NCBI RefSeq assembly: GCF_009707365.1
Contig: NZ_CP046122.1
Coordinates: forward strand, 2,914,001-2,978,000
Direction of reading: 5' to 3'
Source of the DNA: Microlunatus sp. Gsoil 973
GTDB lineage: Bacteria > Actinomycetota > Actinomycetes > Propionibacteriales > Propionibacteriaceae
Length of the DNA stretch: 64,000 bases
Of this stretch, positions 2,184 to 57,027 are shown in pieces. A program made the position numbers and the translations under genes. Numbering within the stretch: position 1 is the first letter of the stretch; every line of letters begins with the position of its first letter. The notes below the pieces were generated by a model. That model saw only the letters and a program-made list of their open reading frames with translations. It had not been told where the DNA came from and searched no databases.

Positions 2184-2361
2184 GGTCACATCCTTGTGGT
2201 CCCACCGAGATCACGTCGGGCCGGAGCTGTCAGGAGAGACCCGGTCGCCCAACTAGTACCAACTTCCACCTGCGACCGGTGGCGGTCAGCCGGGCGTCCC
2301 GGATAGCGGGACGCAGCTCGTCGGCTGTTCGGCGAGACGTCGGCGGCCTCCCGGCACGGAA

Positions 2362-2390
2362 ACGGCCCGGGCTCACCAAGCCCGGGCCGT
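2362..2390 (-). terminator. Intrinsic-type terminator hairpin after the sulfur carrier gene
   Basis: A perfect 12-bp stem (ACGGCCCGGGCT against AGCCCGGGCCGT) with a 5-base loop, 38 bases beyond the sulfur carrier stop. There is no U-tract, as usual in actinobacteria. It marks the end of the riboswitch-thrC-carrier transcription unit and, being symmetrical, could also work for the opposite strand. Confidence 0.75.
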
Positions 2391-2428
2391 GGAACCAGCG
2401 CCGGCGCTGACGCCGACGCAGGACCTCA

Positions 2429-2705
2429 TCAGCCGCCGGCGACGGCCGGGATGATCGACACCTGGGCACCGTCGGGGACCTCGGCGTCCAGACCGCCGAT
2501 GAAGCGTACGTCGTCGTCGCCGACGTAGACGTTGACGAAGCGGCGCAGCGCACCGGTGTCGTCGAGGACCCGGGCCTTCAGCCCTGGGTAGCCCTGCTCC
2601 AGCGAATCGATCAGCTCGGAGATCGTGCCGCCGTCGGCCTTGACCTCCCTTCTCACCACCGGTGTAGGTGCGCAGGATGGTCGGGATGCGTACGGATGCG
2701 CTCAT
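2429..2705 (-). CDS. CysO/MoaD-like ubiquitin-fold sulfur carrier protein (frameshifted)
   Basis: Small beta-grasp carrier of about 91 residues once one extra G is removed. The first 19 residues (MSASVRIPTILRTYTGGEK) are read from 2705; from about 2648 the remainder continues in another frame (EVKADGGTISELIDSLEQG onward, then RFVNVYVGDDDVRF) and ends in PAVAGG, the C-terminal Gly-Gly that is adenylated and thiocarboxylated in ThiS, MoaD and CysO. It resembles mycobacterial CysO (SIPTILR, RFVN.YV, DVRF, PAVAGG). The run GAGAAGGGAGG has one G more than the expected GAGAAGGAGG. The start is two bases downstream of the threonine-synthase-like stop, so the two form an operon. If the extra base is real the carrier is dead; consensus error is likelier. 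Confidence 0.8.
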
Positions 2706-2707
2706 GA

Positions 2708-3985
2708 TCAGTTGTTGGCCTTCCAGAACTCTTCGAACGCGTCGTAACGCGGCTTGATGGTCGCCTTCGGTCCGACCTGGCTGCTGACGGCGTCCAGGGT
2801 CTTCAACCCGTCGCCGGAGTTGATGATCACGGTCTCGGCTGCCGGGTCGAGATCACCCTCGGCGATCAGCTTGGCGGTCACACCGACCGTGACGCCACCG
2901 GCGGTCTCACCGAAGATGCCCTCGGTGCGGGCCAGCCGACGGATGTTGGTGACGACGGTCTCGTCGTCGACGTCAGTGATCTTGCCGCCGGTCTTGCGCA
3001 CCACGTCCAGCACGTACGGCCCGTCGGCCGGATTCCCGATCGCCAGCGACTTGGCGATGGTGTCCGGCTTGACCGGGGCGACCACCTCGTGGCCGGCGCG
3101 GTACGCCTGGGCGATCGGCGAGCAGCCGGTGGCCTGGGCACCGAAGATCTTGTACGCCTTCTCCTGCACCAGACCGAGCTTGATCAACTCACGGAAACCC
3201 TTGTCGATCTTGGTCAGCTGGGATCCGGAGGCGACCGGGATGACCACCTGGTCGGGCAGCCGCCAACCCAGCTGCTCGGCGATCTCGAAGGCCAGCGTCT
3301 TGGAGCCCTCGGCGTAGTACGGCCGGACGTTGACGTTGACGAACGCCCAGTCGTCCTCCTCGCCGGCGATCTCGCTGGCCAGCTTGTTGACGTCGTCGTA
3401 GGTGCCCTCGATGGCGATCAGCGTTGTGTCGTAGACGGCCGAGGCGAGGATCTTCTGCCGCTCCAGGTTGGACGGCACCAACACCACCGACCGGATTCCG
3501 GCGCGAGCCGCTGCCGCGGCGACCGCATTGGCAAGATTGCCGGTTGACGGGCAGGCCAGCACCTGCAGCCCGAGCTCGCGGGCCGCCGACAGCGCAACGG
3601 CGACAACGCGGTCCTTGAACGAATGGGTCGGGTTGCCGGAGTCGTCCTTCACCCACAGCTGCCGCAGGCCGAGATCATCGGCGAGGTTGCGGGCGTCGAC
3701 CAGTCGGGTGAACCCGGGGTCGGTGGACCGGAAGGTCGCGATGTCGGCCGGAACCGGCAGCAGCGGCTGGTAACGCCAGATGCTCTTCGGTCCGCGTTCG
3801 ATCTGTTCGCGGGTGATCTGCGGGTATTCGTAGCCGACCTCGAGCGGCCCGAAGCACTCCAGGCACGCGTAGAACGGGCCGAGTGGGCTGGTCGCGCCGC
3901 AGGCCCGGCAGATCAGGTGGGTAGCGTTGCCGAATGCTCCGGGGCGACAGCCCGCGGGAGCCTCGGCGGCGAGCGCCGTCGTCAC
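2708..3985 (-). CDS. thrC: Threonine synthase-like PLP enzyme under a SAM riboswitch
   Basis: About 425 residues, fold-type II PLP enzyme. An N-terminal zinc ribbon has two Cys pairs (CRACG and CLECFGPLEV). The PLP lysine is in DDSGNPTHSFKDR; the phosphate loop is CPSTGNLANA; PVASGSQLTKI and INSGDGLKTLD complete the fold. Annotated as threonine synthase (O-phosphohomoserine to threonine), but NPTHSFKDR differs from the NPTGSFKDR of the usual hom-thrC-thrB enzyme, and control by SAM plus coupling to a CysO-like carrier point to sulfur amino acid metabolism. GTG at 3985 is chosen because AGCAGG precedes it and the riboswitch ends just upstream; the open frame to 4090 runs through the riboswitch. 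Function is uncertain between threonine synthase and a sulfur-inserting relative. Confidence 0.85.
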   Translation of the reverse strand: MTTALAAEAPAGCRPGAFGNATHLICRACGATSPLGPFYACLECFGPLEVGYEYPQITREQIERGPKSIWRYQPLLPVPADIATFRSTDPGFTRLVDARNLADDLGLRQLWVKDDSGNPTHSFKDRVVAVALSAARELGLQVLACPSTGNLANAVAAAAARAGIRSVVLVPSNLERQKILASAVYDTTLIAIEGTYDDVNKLASEIAGEEDDWAFVNVNVRPYYAEGSKTLAFEIAEQLGWRLPDQVVIPVASGSQLTKIDKGFRELIKLGLVQEKAYKIFGAQATGCSPIAQAYRAGHEVVAPVKPDTIAKSLAIGNPADGPYVLDVVRKTGGKITDVDDETVVTNIRRLARTEGIFGETAGGVTVGVTAKLIAEGDLDPAAETVIINSGDGLKTLDAVSSQVGPKATIKPRYDAFEEFWKANN

Positions 3986-4000
3986 AATGTCCCTGCTTTC

Positions 4001-4122
4001 ATCATCTTTCTCCCACGGCTTTCGTGGGAGTCGGAGTTGGCACCTTGCTCGGTCGACGGGAATCGCTCGAGCTGGTTGCCGGGGGATCATCGGGCCGTTC
4101 CCTCGCCCCCTCTGGATGAGCT
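4001..4122 (-). promoter_or_regulatory. SAM riboswitch (S-box, SAM-I type)
   Basis: The minus-strand leader shows the S-box core in order: a P1 5' arm CTCATC, then CAGAGGGGGCGAGGGA, CGGCCCGATGATCCCCCGGC, AACC, a P3 hairpin (GCTCG with CGAGC), AAGGTGCCAACTCC, a P4 hairpin with perfect 8-bp arms CTCCCACG and CGTGGGAG (4010-4030), and a closing P1 3' arm GATGA. The 3' arm of P1 ends only a few bases before the AGCAGG ribosome-binding site of the GTG start at 3985, and no separate terminator hairpin follows, so control of translation initiation is likelier than attenuation. S-adenosylmethionine binding would switch the thrC-like/sulfur-carrier operon off. Confidence 0.9.
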
Positions 4123-4270
4123 ATGGACAGCGTACGGTGTCGACCCCGCCCCGCACCTAACCGAATCTCATACTGTGATGCCAGTGCTCAATATATGAGA
4201 CGCCAGGCAGCCGCGGTCCGGCCGGAGGTCACCGAACGGGGCGCCCGCGACCTGCCCCACCCGGCCTAGA

Positions 4271-4726
4271 GTGGACTACATGCTCATGGCGATGATTCAC
4301 GCCGTCGAACCGATCGGGGGCGGTCGCCTCACCCGGGCACAGGCGCTGCGCCATTGGGGCAACTGGGTCAATCTGTCCACCCCGCTCGGGATGCTGGTCA
4401 GCCGGATCGGCGGTGCGCGGGTCAGGCGCGGACCGAGGGGCCTTTATCTGGCCGAGGGGTACCGGCTGAGCTTTCCGATCGCGTCCGCCTTCACCATCGG
4501 CGATGTGGTGATCACCGGTCGCGACTGGGACGACCTGTTGGCGGCGAGCCCGGATCTGCTGTCGCACGAGGAACGCCACAGCCGGCAGTACTTCGCCTGC
4601 CTCGGACTGCCGTTCTTCCCGCTGTACGGCCTGGCCATGCTGTGGTCCTACGTGCGGACCCGCTCCGTCGCGCTGGGCAACGCCTTCGAACGCGATGCGG
4701 GGCTGGCCGAGGGCGGCTATCTCTGA
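4271..4726 (+). CDS. Hypothetical protein with HEERH motif and hydrophobic C-terminal segment
   Basis: About 151 residues with GTG start at 4271; ATG codons at 4280 and 4286 are alternatives, and no clear ribosome-binding site separates them. I do not recognise the family with certainty. Visible features are a central segment GDVVITGRDWDDLLAASP, then SHEERHSRQY, an HExxH-like arrangement as in zinc peptidases but without a confirmed third ligand, followed by a hydrophobic stretch LGLPFFPLYGLAMLWSYV that could be membrane-associated. It is transcribed divergently from the SAM-riboswitch operon and converges on an APH-like gene. Function is unknown. Confidence 0.6.
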   Translation: MDYMLMAMIHAVEPIGGGRLTRAQALRHWGNWVNLSTPLGMLVSRIGGARVRRGPRGLYLAEGYRLSFPIASAFTIGDVVITGRDWDDLLAASPDLLSHEERHSRQYFACLGLPFFPLYGLAMLWSYVRTRSVALGNAFERDAGLAEGGYL

Positions 4727-6143: not shown

Positions 6144-7230
6144 ATGCGGTTGGATAGCACCGTGACCGCCAAATCCGAACCAGTCACCACTGTGCCACGC
6201 GTCCGCTGGGGCATCCTCAGCACCGGCCACATCGCCGGCGTCTTCGCCCGCGACCTCGCGCTGATGCCGAGCGAGGCCGAACTCGGCGCAGTGGCCTCCC
6301 GAACGATCGACAAGGCCAAGACGTTCGCCGACGAGTACGGCTTCGCCAGGCCCTACGGCAGCTATGCCGAACTGGCAGCAGACCCCGATATCGATGTGGT
6401 CTACATCGCGTCACCGCACAGTGATCATTTCGCGTCGGCCAAGCTGTGCCTCGAGTCCGGCAAGTCGGTGCTGGTGGAGAAGCCGCTCACGGCGAGCGCG
6501 GCCGACACCGAGACGCTGGTCAACCTCGCCCAGGAGCGCAGCCTGTTCCTGATGGAAGCACTCTGGACCCGGACCAATCCCCCTGCTGCGCAAGGCGGCG
6601 GAGATCGCCACCTCCGGTGAACTGGGCCCGATCCGGCACGTCGACGTCAGCTTCGGCTTCCGGTTCACCGGTGACGATGATCATCGGCTGCTCAATCCCG
6701 ACCTGGCCGGCGGCGCGGTCCTCGACCTCGGTGTCTACCCCACCCATGTGGTGAACCTCTTCCTCGGAGAGCCGGCAAGCGTGCACGGCGCGGGCTACCG
6801 TGCCCGCACCGGGGTCGATGCTCACACCGCGGCGGTCTTCTCCTATCCCGCGACGCCCGAGCGCCCCGCGGCGACGGCGTCGCTGCTGTGCACCCTCGAC
6901 CTGACCCCTGCCAACCGGACGACGGTCTACTGCGAGGACGGGCGGATCGAGATCGGCAACGTGGTCAAGCCGGAATCGATCACCGTCGTTCGCGGCGGAC
7001 TCGGCGATCCGGCCGACGGTACGCCGACCGAAACCAGCGAGGAGCTGGTCACCCAGCTTCCGGGCGGCGGCTACACGTTGCAGGCCCAGGAGGTGATGCA
7101 CCGACTCCGCAGTGGCGAGTTGGAGTCACCGCTGGTTCCCTGGGCTGACACCCTCGGCGTGGCCCGCACGCTGGACCGCTGGATGGGCGTGGTGGAAGGG
7201 CCGGGCAGGGTCGAGGCGGTCGACCGGTGA
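6144..7230 (+). CDS. Gfo/Idh/MocA family oxidoreductase (frameshifted)
   Basis: About 360 residues when one base is removed. The first half (WGILSTGHIAGVFARDL; YIASPHSDHF; SVLVEKPLTA, the EKP catalytic signature; LFLMEALWTRTNP) runs in one frame to about 6580. The rest (LLRKAAEIATSGELGPIRHV; GGAVLDLGVYPTHVVNLFLG; ending VEAVDR) is one frame over. The junction is a run of five C at 6579-6583; four would restore a perfect family sequence. The family uses NAD(P) to oxidise or reduce sugars, inositols or dihydrodiols. It overlaps manA by GTGA, which hints at carbohydrate metabolism. A start at GTG 6162 is possible. Confidence 0.8.
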
Positions 7231-21398: not shown

Positions 21399-21597
21399 TC
21401 TCGCCGATCACATCTCGTCGGCGCGCTGACCTGGGCAACCCTGCTCAGAGTCCCCACTCGCAGGCCGCTCGGACGAGCCCACGGATATCGCTTTCCACCC
21501 CGCCCTTGTCTGCGGGCCGACCGCATGTCATTCTTGGGCCAGTTTCTATCCACTACGGATCGTCGGGCACGTACCTGCCCGTGGAAGGAAGTGCGGC

Positions 21598-55789: not shown

Positions 55790-56707
55790 TCAGCCGGTTT
55801 GGCTGAGCCGGGCTTGGTGGGTGTAGTGGAACTGTTCGGCTTGGACCGGGGTGAAGTCATCGATCGACTCGTGGGTGCGTTCGGTGTTGAACCAGTGCAC
55901 CCAGTCCAGGGTCTGGATCTCGACATGATCACGGCCCCGCCAAGGCCCGCCCGGCCAGATCAGTTCGCTCTTGTAGAGGCCGATCTGGGACTCGGCCAGG
56001 GCGTTATCGTAGGCGTCCCCGACGGTGCCGACGGAGGCATCGACGCCGGCATCGACCAGCCGCTGGGTGAAGGCGATCGAGGTGTACTGACTGCCGGCAT
56101 CGGTGTGGTGCACCAGCCCGGACAGGTCGGTGATCCCGTCCTTGCGGCGGATCCAGATCGCCATCTCCAGGGTGTCCAGCACCAGGTCGGTGGTCATCGA
56201 GGTGGCCGCCCGCCAGCCGAGGATCCGGCGGGAGAACACATCGAAGACGAACGCCACATAGACCATTCCTTCCCAGGTCGGGACGTAGGTGAAGTCGGCA
56301 CACCACAGCTGGTTGGGCCGACTGGCCACGAAGGCCCGGTCGACCAGGTCGGTCGGCCGCTCGGCCTTCTGGTCTGGGACCGTGGTCCGCGGCGCCTTGG
56401 CCCGGGTGATGCCGCTGATGCCGAGCTGGCGGAACAGCCGCTCCACCGTGCAGCGGGCGACATCGTGACCCTTGCCGCGTAGCCGCAGCCACATCTTGCG
56501 GGCACCGAGCAGCCGGGCGAACTTGCCGTTCCGCTCGGCCTGGATCAAGTTGATCAACTCCTGATCTCGTAGGTTTCTCTTACTGGGTTGACGATTGCGA
56601 GCGTCGTAATAGGTGGACGGGGCGATCGGGCAGCCGTGCTCGGTCAGCACGGCACAGATCGGCTCGACCCCGAACCGGTCCCTGTACTCGGCGATGAAAT
56701 CGACTAG
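55790..56707 (-). CDS. IS3-family transposase OrfB (DDE integrase)
   Basis: About 305 residues, read by -1 frameshift from orfA; the frame is open from within the orfA end (VLVDFIAEYRDRFGVEPIC), and GTG at 56650 could serve as an internal start. The rve integrase core has the DDE triad: Asp in QLWCADFTYVPTWEG, Asp in HHTDAGSQYTSIAFTQRL and Glu in YDNALAESQIGLYKSEL. The HTH_21 region (FARLLGARKMWLRLRGKG) precedes it. It catalyses copy-out/paste-in transposition together with OrfA. Confidence 0.93.
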   Translation of the reverse strand, partial: LVDFIAEYRDRFGVEPICAVLTEHGCPIAPSTYYDARNRQPSKRNLRDQELINLIQAERNGKFARLLGARKMWLRLRGKGHDVARCTVERLFRQLGISGITRAKAPRTTVPDQKAERPTDLVDRAFVASRPNQLWCADFTYVPTWEGMVYVAFVFDVFSRRILGWRAATSMTTDLVLDTLEMAIWIRRKDGITDLSGLVHHTDAGSQYTSIAFTQRLVDAGVDASVGTVGDAYDNALAESQIGLYKSELIWPGGPWRGRDHVEIQTLDWVHWFNTERTHESIDDFTPVQAEQFHYTHQARLSQTG

Positions 56708-57027
56708 GACCGGTGTGGGCGGTCGAGCTCCGCCGCGAAGAAAGCCGACGCGGCCTTCAAGATCTCATTCGCCCGGCGCAGCTCGGCGTTCTCCTTCTTC
56801 AACGCCTTGAGCTGGGCCGACTCCTCGCTAGTCACCCCGGGCCGCTGACCGGCATCGATCTCGGCCCGACGGACCCACTTGCGCAGGGTCTCGGCCGAAC
56901 CAATACCAAGCTTGGCCGCGATCGACTTGATCGCCTCAAACTCTGACGGGTAGTCGCCCTTGGTATCAGCGACCATCCGGACCGCGCGCTCCCGCAGCTC
57001 CTTGGGGCATGACGAGGGACGTGACAT
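56704..57027 (-). CDS. IS3-family transposase OrfA (HTH)
   Basis: 107 residues. A helix-turn-helix (CPKELRERAVRMVADTKGDY; IKSIAAKLGIGSAETLRKWV) and a leucine-zipper-like coiled coil (EESAQLKALKKENAELRRAN) used for dimerisation and terminal repeat binding. Its TAG stop at 56704 lies inside orfB, giving the -1 overlap expected for a frameshifted OrfAB fusion. Confidence 0.93.
   Translation of the reverse strand: MSRPSSCPKELRERAVRMVADTKGDYPSEFEAIKSIAAKLGIGSAETLRKWVRRAEIDAGQRPGVTSEESAQLKALKKENAELRRANEILKAASAFFAAELDRPHRS

Follow-up and report, generated by a model that had tools for sequence, protein, structure and literature searches.

The window analysed here, a 64,000-nucleotide stretch of the Microlunatus sp. 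Gsoil 973 genome, in our reading carries a metM-metO operon controlled by a SAM-I riboswitch, in which the PLP enzyme MetM would make homocysteine from O-phosphohomoserine and the sulfur of a carrier protein; we put the probability of this reading at about 90%. The function of MetM in this organism is predicted by orthology, with substrate, sulfur donor and product presumed to be those of the Streptomyces enzyme. The genome itself contains the gene set and its riboswitch, a separate true ThrC and MoeZ, and no MetX was found in it. According to PMC12172450, Hasebe et al. 2024 described MetM of Streptomyces as a homocysteine synthase that converts O-phosphohomoserine to homocysteine, and S. albulus metM has a SAM riboswitch upstream. 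A preliminary description of the window had deduced that O-phosphohomoserine and a carrier thiocarboxylate would yield homocysteine, which the match to S. albulus MetM/MetO and the orthology support; the deduction was right in kind, but already in print for Streptomyces.

Table 1. Features of the metM-metO region, in window coordinates
Feature	Position	Strand	Basis
G+C-rich hairpin of 13 bp downstream of metO, possibly a terminator	2362–2390	−	Fold of 2340–2428, z −3.3
3′ portion of metO, ubiquitin-fold sulfur carrier with a PAVAGG terminus, out of frame with the start; break near 2650 in the assembly	2429–2659	−	ThiS match, tblastn, structure match, identity to relatives
5′ portion of metO, roughly the first 19 codons, in frame with ATG 2705; downstream limit approximate	2649–2705	−	tblastn with the genome's own CysO, giving two pieces in two frames
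metM, ThrC-like PLP enzyme, 425 aa, N-terminal four-cysteine ribbon, lysine motif NPTHSFKDR; proposed homocysteine synthase acting on O-phosphohomoserine	2708–3985	−	TIGR00260, PF00291, orthology with Streptomyces MetM, clade markers
Shine-Dalgarno-like AGGGA, 4 bases past the aptamer and 4 bases ahead of the GTG start	3990–3994	−	Sequence
SAM-I (S-box) riboswitch aptamer, metM-metO leader	3999–4122	−	Rfam RF00162 match

metM and the threonine synthases

The ThrC-like PLP enzyme with an NPTHSFKDR motif read in the preliminary description was borne out by its frame (Table 1) and by profile searches, which gave 264 bits for TIGR00260 (curated cut-off 167) and 226 bits for PF00291. Its GTG start at 3985 is the predicted one, and the open frame extends to 4090, within the aptamer. 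Among solved structures, threonine synthases come closest (173 bits). Exceeded by the window enzyme, TIGR00260 thus fails to separate MetM from ThrC, and since the curated model passes MetM as threonine synthase, metabolic reconstructions of genomes like this one may arrive at a methionine auxotrophy or a pathway gap that is not real.

Phylogenetic analysis separated the two enzymes. In a tree of 64 rows (31 ThrC, 32 MetM and L078), ThrC split off at 100/98 and MetM at 99/97; L078, a relative at 34% whose genome encodes MetM as well, sat on a long branch outside both clades and was excluded from the residue counts. MetM and ThrC are fixed differently at 37 columns (at least 93% per group), 19 of these wholly. 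Four N-terminal cysteines occur in 32/32 MetM rows compared to 0/31 ThrC rows, of which 30 are match segments starting at residue 8–18 of the genome's own ThrC, though the full-length own ThrC is without the cysteines too. Two proteins of the genome score above the TIGR00260 cut-off: the window MetM and the ThrC of a hom-thrC-thrB operon whose three products all exceed their models (the adjacent lysA and rho were named by reading translations only). A second thrC in just such an operon had been proposed as a check in the preliminary description, and its presence means that the window gene is not the only threonine synthase candidate of the genome. The window enzyme is 36% identical to this second protein and, given the separate clade and the fixed differences, is not its orthologue. 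Judged by the tree, identity, riboswitch linkage and the carrier, it is an orthologue of Streptomyces MetM.

An isozyme of threonine synthase, beside which the carrier and the SAM control would be incidental, could also score 264 bits against a cut-off of 167, and published records offer some precedent. A cyanobacterial ThrC from Microcystis that is 51.6% identical to S. albulus MetM, encoded next to a metO-like gene annotated as a putative sulfur carrier, had threonine synthase and deaminase activity and appeared not to work fully as MetM (PMC12172450). Similarly, the S. lividans SAM riboswitch before SLIV_16930-SLIV_16925 is filed under threonine biosynthesis (PMC8079986); judged from the listing alone, this looks like the same operon as metM-metO. 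We nevertheless regard the isozyme as very improbable, because the true thrC lies elsewhere in the hom-thrC-thrB operon, the MetM clade is distinct, its S-box linkage in the order is complete (102/102), and a carrier adjoins metM in all 29 order relatives examined (the best 29 of 101). A plain second threonine synthase was rejected on the tree, the fixed differences and the riboswitch linkage.

Even less probable is a CysM/CysO-like role for the pair, with cysteine or a different sulfur amino acid as the product. The carrier is indeed paralogous to the genome's own CysO, with 55% identity over 73 aa for its 3′ piece, but a complete mec-cysO-cysM set lies elsewhere, the SAM riboswitch points to methionine, and MetM scored just 45 bits on the cysteine synthase model TIGR01136 (cut-off 344), outside the CysK/CysM type. 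Moreover, the Streptomyces enzyme is reported to make homocysteine (PMC12172450). We rejected a CysM-like cysteine synthase because of these scores and because mec-cysO-cysM is encoded separately.

The SAM-I leader

The S-box riboswitch that the preliminary description had placed at 4001–4122 was recovered by RF00162 at 3999–4122 (−) with 77 bits (gathering threshold 44.4; E 2.4e-16), the match covering the full model (positions 1–108). It was the sole S-box found across the 4.91-Mb single-contig genome. The 13 bases between the end of the aptamer and the metM start codon are too short for a terminator, so the riboswitch likely acts by translational control, as judged from the leader geometry only. 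Folding the leader revealed no ligand-dependent or P1-dependent change at the Shine-Dalgarno of metM: whether it was folded free, with P1 forced, or with the 5′ strand of P1 open, four of the five Shine-Dalgarno bases were paired each time.

At the other end of the operon, the terminator that had been described after the carrier stands as a strong hairpin (z −3.3 for the folded region) but not as a canonical T-run terminator: a scan of 2200–4400 for promoters and terminators found neither.

Two further RNAs were detected in the window. RF01497 matched an ALIL pseudoknot, a frameshift signal typical of IS3-family elements, at 56618–56746 (−) with 68 bits, and an msiK RNA (RF01747, 59 bits) lies at 21537–21593 (+).

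The carrier gene and the proposed route

The ubiquitin-fold carrier of the preliminary description, with its PAVAGG end, is present in the window, where the 3′ part of metO matched ThiS (PF02597, 48.8 bits) and shares 68% and 74% identity with the two intact relatives chosen for comparison. Its nearest solved relatives are 4n6e chain B, at 75 bits, and the mycobacterial 3dwg chain C, at 68 bits. Taking ATG 2705 as the carrier start also gives the described two-base gap to metM, but that start and PAVAGG lie in different frames. The frame from ATG 2705 (110 aa) had no Pfam match at E 0.01 and does not reach PAVAGG, and the frame that contains PAVAGG is missing the N-terminal stretch of the carrier. 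When the genome's CysO was used as a tblastn query, it matched both pieces in different frames with an overlap near 2650. Both carrier halves are thus present, in two frames, and metO is frameshifted in this assembly. By comparison, the carrier beside metM is one uninterrupted frame ending in Gly-Gly in 29/29 relatives of the same order (the best 29 of 101 further genomes with MetM). We disfavoured the internal GTG 2659 as the real carrier start, as it loses the N-terminal stretch encoded by the 29 relatives examined.

The break most likely represents a sequencing or assembly error. A Gfo/Idh/MocA oxidoreductase gene at 6144–7230 (+), about 4 kb from metO, is also split, with PF01408 in one frame and PF22725 in the other, and two split genes within 5 kb make assembly indel errors the likelier cause. 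A codon-phase scan of the window listed 33 switches, many of which read as antisense artefacts or ordinary gene junctions; three sites viewed closer read as antisense noise, and only the split at 6144–7230 was backed by family matches. A real frameshift, which would leave the operon decaying without a carrier of its own or MetM supplied by CysO, is what the assembly literally presents, with the start and the PAVAGG end in different frames, and the genome does have its own CysO. We consider it unlikely given the split in an unrelated gene, the apparently intact metM and riboswitch, and the lack of a detected MetX as a fallback. Less credible still is the specific form in which the frameshift is genuine and tolerated and, with no MetX found, MetM takes sulfur from the paralogous CysO after C-terminal trimming; if true, one carrier would serve both cysteine and homocysteine synthesis. 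CysO itself (L019 7112–7399, +) reads two residues beyond Gly-Gly, PAVAGGAR, and would have to be trimmed, for which the JAB protein encoded immediately upstream is a possible candidate.

The partners that the proposed route would need are encoded elsewhere in the genome. The MoeZ-like and Mec-like proteins that the preliminary description had suggested seeking were both found, the former as a MoeZ with ThiF and rhodanese domains (696 bits, cut-off 647) and the latter as a JAB (Mec-type) protein in the separate mec-cysO-cysM cluster. In the proposed route, Hom and ThrB would supply O-phosphohomoserine, and MoeZ, as adenylyltransferase and rhodanese, would turn the Gly-Gly terminus of MetO into a thiocarboxylate. 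MetM would then eliminate phosphate from O-phosphohomoserine on PLP and add the carrier sulfur, giving homocysteine, either directly or with the help of a Mec-like protease, to be methylated by methionine synthase. With enough SAM, the leader would close and metM-metO would be switched off. A MetX search of the genome returned just one 21.8-bit fragment. The genome also encodes a cystathionine gamma-synthase-type enzyme, which scored 644 bits on PRK07811 (cut-off 513), and a weaker second relative that reached 320 of the 440 bits required for cystathionine gamma-lyase, so another route to homocysteine is possible.

Distribution and known systems

MetM orthologues were found in 102/147 genomes of the order, each with at least 614 bits to the window protein; at E 1e-60 there was only one further match, with 207 bits. 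MetM and the S-box share the same 102 genomes, and the S-box lies upstream of MetM on the same strand in every one, 11–96 nt ahead of where the protein match begins. One genome, G022, has an extra S-box away from metM (G022:C101:1779–1865). At least two thrC-family copies (E 1e-50) were present in 101/102 MetM genomes (G064 has one), compared to a single copy in 45/45 genomes without MetM. MetX was counted above 300 bits, the curated cut-off of 500 bits being reached by no genome or control; on this measure it was present in 44/102 MetM genomes versus 41/45 without MetM, with four having neither (Fisher p 1.9e-8, kinship ignored and G032, at 164 bits, scored as without MetX). Given that 44 of the MetM genomes also have MetX, MetM is not always the sole route and the absence of MetX is no strict rule.

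Beyond the order, 94 of 246 genomes in a phylum sample had MetM at E 1e-90. For at least 57 of these 94 genes, one of the 150 S-boxes listed lay between −60 and 500 nt away, and the other 93 of the listed S-boxes are located away from MetM. Among 19 more distant MetM loci (L059–L077), 15 had a carrier gene within the fetched stretch and four did not (L066, L074, L075 and L076). Named Streptomyces and Kitasatospora orthologues numbered 80 of 584 confirmed, among the matches listed; the window MetM is 62.9–65.6% identical to these 80, a carrier is nearby at 80/80 of the loci, and an S-box is upstream in 20/20 of those given to Rfam. A plasmid collection gave a single match, a Nonomuraea gerenzanensis record (64.5%). 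The carrier tails at loci L059–L158 vary: 20/95 end in Gly-Gly-Cys and 3/95 have other tails past Gly-Gly, so some MetO may need a protease before activation.

The MetM/MetO gene set of Streptomyces is thus now seen in 102/147 sampled genomes of another actinobacterial order, with an unbroken riboswitch linkage and a partly complementary pattern of MetM and MetX. Part of this spread may be in print already, as Hasebe and co-workers reportedly found MetM/MetO to be widespread. In their Streptomyces system, metO is said to follow metM, and thiocarboxylated MetO is said to be the sulfur donor in vitro.

Four known systems bear comparison. With ThrC (TIGR00260), the window enzyme shares the fold family, the lysine motif and probably the substrate O-phosphohomoserine; it differs in its low identity to the own ThrC (36%), its separate clade, the 37 fixed differences and the four-cysteine ribbon. 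Homocysteine is also made from a carrier thiocarboxylate by HcyS/MetY of Wolinella succinogenes, but with an unrelated PLP enzyme and O-acetylhomoserine. The mycobacterial CysM/CysO/Mec/MoeZ system likewise pairs a PLP enzyme acting on a phosphorylated substrate with a ubiquitin-fold carrier bearing a Gly-Gly thiocarboxylate, charged by MoeZ; mycobacterial MoeZR forms the CysO thiocarboxylate (PMC3227635). There, however, O-phosphoserine is converted to cysteine, and CysM belongs to another PLP subfamily; a CysM/CysO/Mec set is also present in the window's genome, but the sole S-box is not there. The closest counterpart is S. albulus MetM/MetO, with which the window shares a ThrC-like enzyme, a sulfur carrier gene, an upstream SAM riboswitch and a true ThrC elsewhere, and MetM is 63–66% identical to the 80 listed Streptomycetaceae orthologues, which may or may not include that of S. 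albulus. Unlike S. albulus MetM/MetO, the window comes from another order of the same class, and its carrier frame is broken in the assembly.
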